NCBI GenBank assembly: GCA_017614995.1 | Contig: JAGAAX010000039.1 | Location: 124,001-188,000 of the forward strand | Direction: 5' to 3' | DNA: 64,000 bases | From: Spirochaetaceae bacterium | GTDB lineage: Bacteria > Spirochaetota > Spirochaetia > Treponematales > Treponemataceae | In this document: one piece after another, positions 1-50,936 of the stretch | Layout: every line of letters begins with the position of its first letter | Numbering within the stretch: position 1 is the first letter of the stretch | Program-made: the position numbers and the translations under genes | Notes under the pieces: generated by a model | Seen by the model: the letters and a program-made list of their open reading frames with translations, nothing else | What the model was told of the DNA's origin: nothing | Database searches by the model: none

Positions 1-678
1 GAGCGCCAGAAAGCACACAAGCAGAGAAACCGAAATTGCAAAGCCTATAACAAGGCAGTGCGGGTTAAAATACTGAAAAATAATGGCAACAACCAGAGCA
101 ATGCTGTAAAAAACCACGCATGTAATTGTTGCAGCTTTTATCTTCTTTTTGAATTTAAAGCAGTGAATAAGCCCAAGAATAATGTAGAAGCCGGCAATTA
201 TGTAGAGAACGGTCATGCCTGCGCCATGATGATAAGCACCGGTTTCGTCGTTGTACATTGTCCAATGCGTCAACGGCGATGTAATTGTAGAAATCAGAAT
301 ATAGTAGACTGTTAAGCCGAGCGTGTATTTAATCACTTTTGGGGTTTCAGCATAAGTGTGTGTCATTGAAAGCAAAAAGTAATAGTAAAACAGCGGAATC
401 ATGTTTACTGAAAGAATGTGTACAATGTTTACTATGTTGGTTAAGACCGGCGCTTTTAACGCATAATACTGATTTGTATAAACGGACAGAAGATTAAAGA
501 TAATGCCGGTTAGAGCAGATGCCGTCAAAAGTAGAAAAACTTTAGAATTATGAGTCGGAAAATGTTTGTAAAAAATCAGAACAGCAAGAATAATCGACGT
601 AATGATAAGGCTTGCAATATCGAAATATATAATGTAATTCACAAAGTTAATATATAGACAATAGAATTTTATGTCCAT
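1..678 (-). CDS. Integral membrane sensor N-terminus, truncated by window edge
   Basis: Reading the minus strand from an ATG at 678 gives 226 codons open to base 1, so the 3' end lies outside the window. The protein starts MDIKFYCLYINF and is a run of hydrophobic helices separated by short polar loops (for example around residues 15-35, 45-60, 75-95 and 110-130, with further helices up to the edge). This matches the multi-helix input modules (7TM histidine-kinase-N-like) that treponemes place before GGDEF or kinase domains. The output domain is not visible, so that assignment is inference. A GGAG lies about 15 nt upstream of the ATG, which is rather far. It diverges from rsmE. Confidence 0.6.
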   Translation of the reverse strand, partial: MDIKFYCLYINFVNYIIYFDIASLIITSIILAVLIFYKHFPTHNSKVFLLLTASALTGIIFNLLSVYTNQYYALKAPVLTNIVNIVHILSVNMIPLFYYYFLLSMTHTYAETPKVIKYTLGLTVYYILISTITSPLTHWTMYNDETGAYHHGAGMTVLYIIAGFYIILGLIHCFKFKKKIKAATITCVVFYSIALVVAIIFQYFNPHCLVIGFAISVSLLVCFLAL

Positions 679-47217: not shown

Positions 47218-47342
47218 ATTGTTTAAAACATCGGCATGTATGTTAAGTTTCTGTAAACTAGTTTCCGCCAGCAAGATTTAAGCAGATTTTAATAATTGGG
47301 GAATTGAAGAAATGGCGTTCCAAGCCGTTGCAGGTTCTTGTT

Positions 47343-47381
47343 CCGGCGGAGATTTAAAGTCAGACTTGAAATCTCCGCCGG
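47343..47381. repeat. Long near-perfect palindrome in the promoter of an ATPase gene
   Basis: Arms CCGGCGGAGATTT (47343-47355) and AAATCTCCGCCGG (47369-47381) are perfect; inside them AAGTC-A-GACTT extends the hairpin. The right arm covers most of the -35/-10 spacer of the ATPase promoter. Confidence 0.75.
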
Positions 47382-47394
47382 TGCATGTTATCAT
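47366..47394 (+). promoter_or_regulatory. Promoter predicted to give a leaderless mRNA
   Basis: TTGAAA (47366-47371), 17 bp, TATCAT (47389-47394), 6 nt of T, ATG at 47401. No ribosome-binding site. Confidence 0.6.
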
Positions 47395-47400
47395 TTTTTT

Positions 47401-48606
47401 ATGATAAAGCGAAGCGTTTCAGAATATATAAAAACCTGCATGAGCGAATATTTTTCTGTGGCGGTATTCGGGCCACGCCAATGTGGAAAAACTACGCTTA
47501 TAAGAGAACTTTTCCCTGATTTTTCTTATGCAAATCTTGAGGATATGAATGTCCGCAATCTGGCAAAAAACGACCCCGAAGAATTTTTCACCCGCTTCCC
47601 TGAGCCTGTCATAATTGATGAGATTCAGCGTGTGCCTGAACTTTTGAGCACTGTTCAGGTTCGCATTGACAGCAACAAAAAGAAAGGACAGTACATAATT
47701 ACCGGCAGTCAGCAGATTTCGCTTAAAAATTCTGTCTCGCAGTCGCTTGCCGGAAGAATTGCACTTGTTCAGATGCAGCCGCTTTCAATGGCAGAACTGA
47801 AAGCAAGCAATATTGAACTTGACCGCGATACACAGCTTGTTTCTGGCTTTATGCCCTATCTTTTTGCAGAGCAGGGTCACAAGCCGTTTGAATATTACAG
47901 AAACTATGTTCAGACCTATCTTGAAAAAGATATTGCACAGATTGGCGCTGTGCAGGATTTAATGCGCTTTGAAAATTTTATGCGGCTTCTTGCAGGGCGG
48001 ACAGGTCAGCTTGTAAACAATTCTGCCCTTTCCGGCGAAGTCGGCGTTTCAAGCACCACAATCGGCTCATGGCTTTCGGTTCTAGAAGCTTCTCATCTTG
48101 TTTTTGTTCTGCGCCCCTGGTACGAAAACAGGACAAATCAGGTTGTAAAAACCCCGAAAGTATACTTTTGCGACACCGGTCTTGCTTCGTATCTTTTAGG
48201 AATTGAAACGCCGGAACAGATGCAGCGTGACCCCTTGATGGGAAATCTCTTTGAAAATCTTGTTGTTTCAGAAGCATTAAAGGCACGCTACAATTCTGGC
48301 GCAGAGCCTGACCTTTATTTTTTTAGAAACAGCAAAGGGCTTGAGATTGACGTAATCCTTAAAGAGAACCGGCTTCTTAATCTGTTTGAAGTCAAAAGCG
48401 GAAAAGCCCTAAACGACGATTTTACTAAAAATATGCAGAAATTCCGCGAATTGTACAGCCCGTACACAACAAACGGTTCTGTAAAAGGAACTGTGATTTA
48501 CAGCGGCGAGACATATAAATCTTATAAAGATTTTGCCTATGTAAATTTTCACCAGACCTCAGATTTATTTTCTCCAAAAACAGAGCCCTTTGTCTTGCGG
48601 TTTTAA
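47401..48606 (+). CDS. AAA ATPase with DUF4143-type C-terminal domain (second copy)
   Basis: 401 aa from the ATG at 47401; the frame is open to 47338 but that part lies in the palindrome and promoter. Walker A VFGPRQCGKTTLIRELF, Walker B PEPVIIDEIQRVPELL, sensor YIITGSQQISLKNSVSQSLA, then an HTH-like stretch (LAGRTGQLVNNSALSGEVGV) and a C-terminal nuclease-like core (FFRNSKGLEIDVILKENRLL, LFEVKSGKAL; D...ExK). Same family as the ATPase at 19.5 kb but only distantly similar in sequence. Function unknown; commonly present in multiple copies. Confidence 0.82.
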   Translation: MIKRSVSEYIKTCMSEYFSVAVFGPRQCGKTTLIRELFPDFSYANLEDMNVRNLAKNDPEEFFTRFPEPVIIDEIQRVPELLSTVQVRIDSNKKKGQYIITGSQQISLKNSVSQSLAGRIALVQMQPLSMAELKASNIELDRDTQLVSGFMPYLFAEQGHKPFEYYRNYVQTYLEKDIAQIGAVQDLMRFENFMRLLAGRTGQLVNNSALSGEVGVSSTTIGSWLSVLEASHLVFVLRPWYENRTNQVVKTPKVYFCDTGLASYLLGIETPEQMQRDPLMGNLFENLVVSEALKARYNSGAEPDLYFFRNSKGLEIDVILKENRLLNLFEVKSGKALNDDFTKNMQKFRELYSPYTTNGSVKGTVIYSGETYKSYKDFAYVNFHQTSDLFSPKTEPFVLRF

Positions 48607-48668
48607 CCAGATTTTAATAATTGATTTTGTCTTTTTCTGGGAACATGGTTTATAATTTCTTAAATAGA

Positions 48669-48777: not shown

Positions 48778-48798
48778 CTCAACACATTAGGAGGAAAT

Positions 48799-50936
48799 AT
48801 GAAAGATACTATGTATAGAATGAGGGGGGGGGTAAAAAGCTCTTTCTAACAGCCCTCTTTCTTTTTATTGTTTCTATTTCTATTTTTGCGCAGAACGTAA
48901 AGCCGTATGTCGTTGATTTAAATTGGCTTCCAACCGTAAATTCTGATAAGACTGCAACTTTTGACAAGGCGACTAAAACACTTACGATTTCTTACAATGA
49001 CAATCTGGAATGGGGCGGTGACAGGGGCTTATATCTTGGGCTCAATAATCTTGGTATCAGTAATTATAACATCGCAAGAGTAAAGTACAAGGTTCTGGGA
49101 GATTACGGATTCAATTTTGTTCTGGATTATGATGATGAAACTCTGGATTGGAGCGTAGACAAAACAACTTATTGTCCGACTTACCTTAATGAGATGGTTA
49201 TTCCTCTTAAAGCCAATCAGAAAAAACTAAAAGGAATTTCAATTGGAGGAGCGTGGAATGTTCGTTATGAACAGTTTGTAATTGAATCAATTACTTTTGA
49301 AAAAATTGCCAATCCACAGAAAACAGATGTTAATGCTTGTGATGAGCCTCCTGTAATCGACACCGCAAAAAATGGAATAATAAATGAAAAACTCTCAGCA
49401 TGGGATTTTGTTAAACAACTCGGTGCAGGTTTACAATATATGGTTTTTATTGACGCTCCTGAGTTGCTTGATTTTGGTATGGATGTTCACCCAGGAAATG
49501 CATTTTCAAAACCGACAAAAGAACAAATTCAGTTTATAAAAAGCAAGGGATTTAAAACAATCCGTATTCAAACGAATCCTGGTAATGATCATTTGATGGA
49601 TAAAGATTACAGGATAAATCCGTCATACATTAAACATATTAAGCAGGTTGTTGACTGGTGTATTGAAGAAGATATGTATGTTATTATCTGTGGTCCATTT
49701 GCTGAATATGGAATCGATGAAAAATATAAAAAAAGAGTGGCCGCCGGTGACGTTCATTTTGCCGGTTATTTTGTAAATGAAAATGATAAAAAAGAATCCG
49801 AGAGATTTTTAAGAGCTGTCTGGAAACAGTATGCTGAAGCATTTAATAATTCTTATGACGAACATCTGATTTTTGAAAACCTTAATGAGCCAGTTGATGT
49901 TTTTCATGTGGAGAATGTACATTCCTGGTTTCCAAAAGATGATTGTTCAAGATGTAAAAAAGCTTATGAAGTCTTGAATGATTATAATCAGCTTATAGTT
50001 GATACAATCCGTTCAACTGGAGGAAATAACACTAATCGCTTTATTATGATAAATGGTCTTGGAGCAAAATGTTGGACTATTACAAGCAAGAACTTTAAGT
50101 TGCCGAAAGACAAGTCAAATAACAAGCTTATTCCGACATATCATGAATACACAATGGGTGGTTCTGCGGCTTTTGATCAGTATTCCGATTATTATACAAA
50201 TGGCATAAAAGAATCGATTCTCGAAACATTTGCAGCTTTTGATAAAGTATATTTTTCAAAGCATATTCCGGTTTATGTCAGCGAAATCGGACAAAGCCGT
50301 AGAACTCCGATTTTGGAGCGTATAAAATGGATAAAAGATTTTATGGCAGAAGCTTCAAAACCAAGCCGTTCATGCGCCGCTTTGTTGCATGTTGATGGCG
50401 CACTTAAAGATGATGGAGGATTTTTCAGCGGTTACTATGACAGCTGGAAGCTTGGATGGTATGACGAGGAATTCGTTGATACGTTTATTTACGGAGCTCA
50501 GGGCAAAGATTATCCGTTGAGCGCAGACTTTGTCAAAAAGAACGAAGTCAAAGTTGAAAGCATCGTGGGTAAAAACCTTTTGAAAAACCCTTTGGAATTA
50601 AAGAATTGGGAAGGTGGATATAAATTAACCAGCAATGTTTTAGCTCTAGCAACACCTGCAAAATACAAACTTGTTTTTGAATTTGAAAGAAAAGGTTCAG
50701 ATCCTAGATTTAATATTGGATACAATGACTCAAGGTTAAATTGGCATGAAGTTGTACCTTTGCTACAAAAGTCGGGTGTAAAGGGTGGAATGATTGATGG
50801 AACTACTATAAAGGTTAAGGCTAAGACTATAGAAATCTCTGTTGACGAAGAACTTGCCAAACAGCTTGAGTATACTATTGGCATCTATCTGAATGGCAAG
50901 GACATCATTATCAAGTCTATGAAGGTTATTGAGTAA
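48799..50936 (+). CDS. Secreted GH5-type glycoside hydrolase with (G)9 frameshift near its start
   Basis: ATG at 48799 with AGGAGG upstream reads nine G residues (48824-48832) and then stops after 16 codons. With 7 or 10 Gs the frame would run on into a signal peptide (KKLFLTALFLFIVSISIFA) and a protein of about 710 aa. It has an N-terminal beta-rich binding module (to about residue 155), a GH5-like barrel with LIFENLNEPVDVF (acid/base Glu) and PVYVSEIGQS (nucleophile Glu), and a C-terminal module. As sequenced, only a signal-less part from about 49194 could be made. Likely cellulase or related beta-glucanase; phase variation is inferred. Confidence 0.78.
48824..48832 (+). repeat. Homopolymeric (G)9 tract, candidate phase-variation switch
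   Basis: Nine consecutive Gs at codons 9-12 of the GH5-type gene. With 9 Gs the gene is out of frame; 7 or 10 restores it. Poly-G tracts are established contingency switches in treponemes. A sequencing or assembly error is the alternative. Confidence 0.7.

Follow-up and report, generated by a model that had tools for sequence, protein, structure and literature searches.

In Treponema pallidum, the poly-G tracts of tprE/G/J, tprL and tp0126 lie upstream of the transcription start or between the -35 and -10 elements (PMC7864442). Phase variation at poly-G or poly-C tracts within coding sequence is described for Neisseria (hmbR, hpuAB) and Campylobacter (PMC3786947, PMC4965091). For the pilus G-tract of Bifidobacterium breve, replication slippage was shown by deep sequencing (PMC9187656). 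Among cultured treponemes, G/C tracts have been counted per genome and tied to slipped-strand mispairing; the rumen commensal T. ruminis was the poorest in tracts, and tracts were discussed in connection with pathogens (PMC8049484).

The locus described here lies in a 64,000-nucleotide stretch of genomic DNA (the window), and its features are collected in Table 1. An earlier note on this DNA had read from it a Shine-Dalgarno sequence, a start codon at 48799, a run of nine Gs and a stop at codon 17, and all four are present. The (G)9 run is exact, with an A before it and a T after it, and is the only run of at least seven Gs in the window. Uninterrupted, it sits in the 5' part of the coding sequence, after the start codon and ahead of the functional domain. 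The frame from the ATG reads MKDTMYRMRGGVKSSF and then meets TAA, and the assembled allele is OFF. One class of tract lengths leads to the full protein and other lengths lead to an early stop: 7 or 10 Gs join the leader to the signal peptide and complete enzyme, as the note had proposed, and 13 Gs do so too. The ON product carries the leader and its glycines N-terminal to the signal peptide. The enzyme frame contains no ATG, GTG or TTG until codon 121, so the signal peptide is retained only by way of the ATG at 48799, and a start between the tract and codon 121 is ruled out. Sister genes read GAAT-Gn-TAAAA, without the A found at window position 48823. Further upstream, positions 48604-48656, which include the putative promoter, are 89% identical to the syntenic locus of a sister species. 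Both flanks of the ATPase-like gene that precedes this region match the sister-species locus (L049), where the gene itself has no nucleotide match, and the gene is probably an insertion adjoining the switch locus.

Table 1. Coordinates of features at the window locus (nucleotide positions in the window; domain boundaries as residues of the enzyme).
Feature	Position	Strand	Remark
ATPase-like gene	47338..48606	+	upstream, outside the switch
Putative sigma-70-type promoter TTGTCT-18-TATAAT	48627..48656	+	consensus match only
Shine-Dalgarno AGGAGG	48789..48794	+	AGGAGGAAATATG also in C49, C41, C47 and C43b leaders
Leader ATG AAA GAT ACT ATG TAT AGA ATG A	48799..48823	+	common to GH5 paralogues of two subfamilies
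(G)9 tract, proposed slippage switch	48824..48832	+	enzyme frame opened by 7, 10 or 13 Gs
TAA ending the 16-codon product of the current (OFF) frame	48847..48849	+	codon 17
GH5 enzyme frame, 700 codons and stop TAA	48834..50936	+	
Signal peptide KKLFLTALFLFIVSISIFA	48834..48890	+	cleavage probably after A19; judged by eye
N-terminal beta domain	residues about 22-157		
GH5 barrel	residues about 185-555		
C-terminal beta domain	residues about 575-700		
Codon of E352, predicted acid/base (NEP motif)	49887..49889	+	
Codon of E484, predicted nucleophile	50283..50285	+	invariant in 15-sequence alignment

The enzyme behind the tract is a member of glycoside hydrolase family 5, as the note had supposed. 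It matches the PF00150 (Cellulase/GH5) profile with E = 1.1e-34 and has both catalytic glutamates, E352 in the NEP motif and E484 on strand 7; a search of NCBIfam gave no match. An AlphaFold2 model built on an alignment of 15 sequences has a mean pLDDT of 87 and places a beta domain on either side of the GH5 barrel. The nearest solved relatives, by both sequence and fold, belong to the GH5_4 endoglucanases from rumen and clostridial bacteria, with Cel5C (4nf7) first; 4nf7 matches the catalytic barrel at E = 1.5e-42 in phmmer and E = 6e-27 in Foldseek. The protein looks like a secreted plant-polysaccharide hydrolase of the endo-beta-1,4-glucanase kind, made by a rumen-type commensal, and its substrate would be plant beta-glucans. 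The earlier suggestion of a glycan-degrading surface activity agrees with this as far as secretion is concerned; retention at the surface gains no support from the signal peptide, which is an ordinary cleavable one.

The whole assembly (3.05 Mb in 64 contigs) contains 21 G runs (three G7, ten G8, seven G9 and one G10), and 14 of them fall in the opening ~25 codons of genes that encode a signal peptide or lipobox. This placement at the starts of secreted and lipoprotein genes is not due to chance. Tracts of G7-G9 away from gene starts (contigs C9, C29, C46, C59 and C62) and tracts at the junction of two genes (upstream of an mreB-like gene on C44 and of a tetrapyrrole methylase gene on C37) were not counted as switches. 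A single conserved leader, ATGAAAgATACTATGTATAGAAT-Gn-TAAAA, stands before seven GH5 genes of two subfamilies, and every one of these genes has a separate G8-G9 tract. One subfamily comprises the window gene, C43:20845, C47 and C56, and the other C41, C43:10334 and C49; two of the seven (C43:10334 and C47) are ON at the tract and five are OFF. Between the subfamilies the leader and signal peptide (about 80-110 bases) are 86-88% identical in DNA, and no DNA similarity is detectable beyond them, so the 5' end behaves as a cassette.

Six large lipoproteins of the same genome (L036, L042, L043, L045, L033 and L005, on G000 contigs C15, C50, C52, C60, C39 and C49:84635) carry G7-G9 directly after the lipobox cysteine (ITSC-GGG). 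With G8 four of them are ON, and with G7 and G9 two are OFF. They have relatives throughout the genus, a Pfam scan of three of the six gave no match, and they form a candidate second phase-variable family. A 306-codon frame of unknown family also has a G10 within its signal peptide (L001:2804-2813, on G000:C3) and is OFF as assembled.

We compared the window gene with its relatives in other genomes, most of the named ones coming from rumen or reticulum samples (yak, water buffalo, a rumen MAG series); given these origins, the window genome is likely a rumen-type Treponema. The syntenic orthologue in the sister species (G001:C44, L049), whose flanks are 79-87% identical in DNA, keeps the leader, but there the pure tract is replaced by GCGGGAGGG; the gene is in frame and reads as a locked-ON allele. 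Two other copies in that species have pure tracts, a G9 that is in frame (C19) and a G7 that is out of frame (C164). A further comparison comes from two rumen MAGs of species other than that of the window (Tb.RUG.153 and UBA1233; L052 and L055), which share one GH5 locus at 93% identity over 5.1 kb. The 25 bases before the tract are identical, and the tract is a G8 in frame in one and a G9 out of frame in the other; a tract-length difference with a consequence for the frame is thus seen between relatives of the gene. Among all GH5 relatives examined, those with a tract are 9 in frame and 10 out, and those without are 34 in frame and 1 out (Fisher p = 3e-5), as read by eye and leaving out genes with no recognisable SD-linked start. 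One GH5 relative (L048, near 2942-2970) has runs of A and T where its signal peptide is encoded, and its SD-linked ATG does not lead into the gene's frame, possibly through poly-A/T slippage or error.

A broken frame may simply mark a recent frameshift pseudogene with its tract fixed out of frame. The assembled frame is indeed broken, and two paralogues carry other damage: C47 (L004, G000:C47:1023-3086) is in frame at the tract but has a second lesion downstream, a frame break and a TAG, and in C56 (L044) the catalytic NEP is replaced by NNP and the acid/base Glu is lost. C56 may be a binding protein or a decaying copy, and both may represent decay among tract-bearing paralogues. The window gene, however, is otherwise open over 700 codons with both catalytic residues in place, its sole lesion sits exactly where relatives have tracts of other lengths, and all but one of the 35 tractless relatives are in frame. 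Substitution patterns also argue against decay. Between C49 and G001:C164, both OFF, dN is 0.11 and dS is 0.54, a dN/dS of about 0.2; other gene pairs give 0.16-0.33, with many dS values above 1 and near saturation. The OFF genes are thus open and under purifying selection; they are being maintained, and this requires that they be expressed from time to time. We regard the pseudogene explanation as very improbable.

The arrangement extends well beyond this genome. In 274 genomes of the family, the pattern SD-ATG-N10..40-G8 occurs in 107 and the reversed pattern in 35; the matches number 129 on the forward and 214 on the reverse strand, and 37 and 26 for the reversed pattern, longer tracts being counted more than once on one strand. 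The SD-ATG-poly-G pattern is also present in further families of the order. Chance is ruled out by the reversed-pattern control together with the position of the tract in the paralogues. From 21 family genomes we collected 60 leader tracts, picked for gene-like leaders, with lengths of 8-14; 17 are ON and 43 OFF, and the in-frame share (28%) does not differ significantly from one third (p = 0.49). Downstream of almost every tract is a long open frame that opens with a hydrophobic stretch, usually with a lipobox; one of these frames (L185) is broken early, and two (L190 and L197) are one sequence present twice. A domain scan of ten of these proteins found FGE-sulfatase, Listeria-Bacteroides repeat, InlB-B, BspA-type leucine-rich and Ig-like domains, which are typical of surface proteins. 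FGE-sulfatase-domain lipoproteins stand behind out-of-frame poly-G leaders at L208 and L183 (G153 and G129), one of them with Listeria-Bacteroides repeats; FGE-type folds in treponemes also carry diversity-generating-retroelement variation. Within the set of 60 (L174-L233), GTA(T/C) occurs no more than 10 bases before 38 tracts (background 5%) and TA follows about three quarters of them, even among unrelated-looking leaders. Some of these leaders hold palindromes, for example GTATACAAAAGTATAC.

The same survey bears on the explanation that the tract length is an assembly or sequencing error and that the real tract has an invariable, in-frame length. Homopolymers are error-prone, the window genome is a draft in 64 contigs, and nearly all genomes compared are MAGs in which the consensus tract length may be off by one. 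Errors of this kind, however, would not set tracts at one and the same position in seven paralogues and again in the MAGs of unrelated studies, and would not yield one-third in frame over 60 loci, and the same tracts occur in genomes with chromosome-sized contigs (G092, 2.8 Mb; G035, 2.5 Mb). An erroneous count is accordingly an exceedingly doubtful account of the locus. The poly-G artefact of dark cycles in two-colour sequencing is ruled out, because the tracts are found in the middle of contigs, at the same homologous position in MAGs obtained independently; G runs at contig ends (for example in G297 and G321) resemble that artefact and were left out.

The tract could also act on transcription, with the apparent leader untranslated, as in the promoter-type switches of T. 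pallidum (PMC7864442). Sequences of the GTAY type often precede the tracts, and one GH5 relative (L051:2943-2951) has a G9 upstream of the gene, between TTGACA and TATAAT, a candidate transcriptional poly-G switch in the same gene family. At the window locus, by contrast, the tract lies neither in the promoter nor between -35 and -10 elements: a strong Shine-Dalgarno sequence and an ATG precede it, and the stretch from tract to signal peptide contains no start codon. A promoter-like site is about 170 bases upstream, and the leader stays in frame in tractless and interrupted relatives. A promoter switch at this locus is thus very unlikely, and the lineage may use both types, translational here and promoter-based at L051.

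Slippage on homopolymers is known in bacteria, and transcriptional slippage or ribosomal frameshifting on the G run could produce some enzyme from OFF genes, the tract then setting a level rather than an on/off state. That many alleles across genomes are out of frame and yet selected would fit such leakage. Taken alone, it leaves unexplained the length differences between close orthologues and the in-frame alleles of other lengths; it is compatible with replication slippage, and the two may coexist. As the whole explanation we consider it unlikely.

The locus is very probably a translational contingency locus that phase-varies by slipped-strand mispairing, which is the simplest account of the findings. 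The candidate reading offered in the earlier note has gained from mixed-frame tracts in the seven GH5 leaders and six lipoproteins of one genome, from length differences between close orthologues, from the purifying selection estimated for OFF copies and from the one-third in frame across the family. During replication, mispairing would add or remove one or a few Gs. The tract lies between start codon and signal peptide, so its length decides the frame of ribosomes starting at 48799, which would either continue into the 700-codon frame of the secreted GH5 enzyme or terminate after some 16 codons. The cassette of leader and signal peptide would have been set before several GH5 genes, and because each has its own tract, a population would be a mosaic in which cells differ in the subset of enzymes that they secrete. 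We infer slippage within one population, its switching rate, its effect on expression and its advantage, which might lie in bet-hedging or in sharing the cost of secreted enzymes, or in evading phage or immunity. More broadly, we lean slightly towards the view that the poly-G leader cassette has been recruited repeatedly before unrelated secreted and lipoprotein families in gut Treponemataceae, so that commensal fibre-degrading spirochaetes would have an extensive translational phasome, with the plant-cell-wall enzymes themselves turned on and off randomly in individual cells.

Most discussion of phase variation concerns the surface structures of pathogens; in rumen and gut treponemes it apparently governs secreted enzymes for plant polysaccharides together with a wide range of lipoproteins. 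If this is true, digestion itself is a bet-hedged trait, and many gut-treponeme genes annotated as frameshifted or start-less are live. The locus also offers a testable system for asking whether costly secreted public goods are switched stochastically.

The mechanism itself is already known. Its placement in a reading-frame leader, its GH5 plant-polysaccharide cargo and its occurrence in gut treponemes were not found together in the limited literature searched, where no direct precedent for phase-variable glycoside hydrolases under homopolymeric tracts turned up (subscription papers lay mostly outside it), nor any description of GH5_4 endoglucanases as phase-variable. The window enzyme shares the catalytic barrel and both catalytic glutamates with the GH5_4 endoglucanases (Cel5C 4nf7, CelCCA 1edg and R. 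champanellensis 6wqp), but has extra N- and C-terminal beta domains. The B. breve switch likewise uses an intragenic G tract in a gut commensal; it acts on pilus genes of Actinobacteria, with no polysaccharidase and no shared leader. The Neisseria and Campylobacter systems resemble the present one in having a homopolymer in the reading frame, ON and OFF states set by frame and many loci per genome. Their targets are receptors and surface structures, whereas here secreted GH5 enzymes and treponemal lipoproteins are affected, and the signal peptide is preceded by a shared leader cassette. The survey of cultured treponemes provides counts only, and the tract-bearing rumen-type genomes found here do not match its contrast between commensals and pathogens. 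The poly-G loci of T. pallidum are alike in belonging to Treponema in the broad sense, in tracts of 7-11 Gs with variable length and in their outer-membrane cargo. The treponemal precedent invoked in the note is mostly located in promoters and transcriptional. Here the tract follows the Shine-Dalgarno sequence and start codon and lies in the reading frame before the signal peptide, which makes the switch translational, and its cargo consists of polysaccharide hydrolases and large lipoproteins of gut treponemes.
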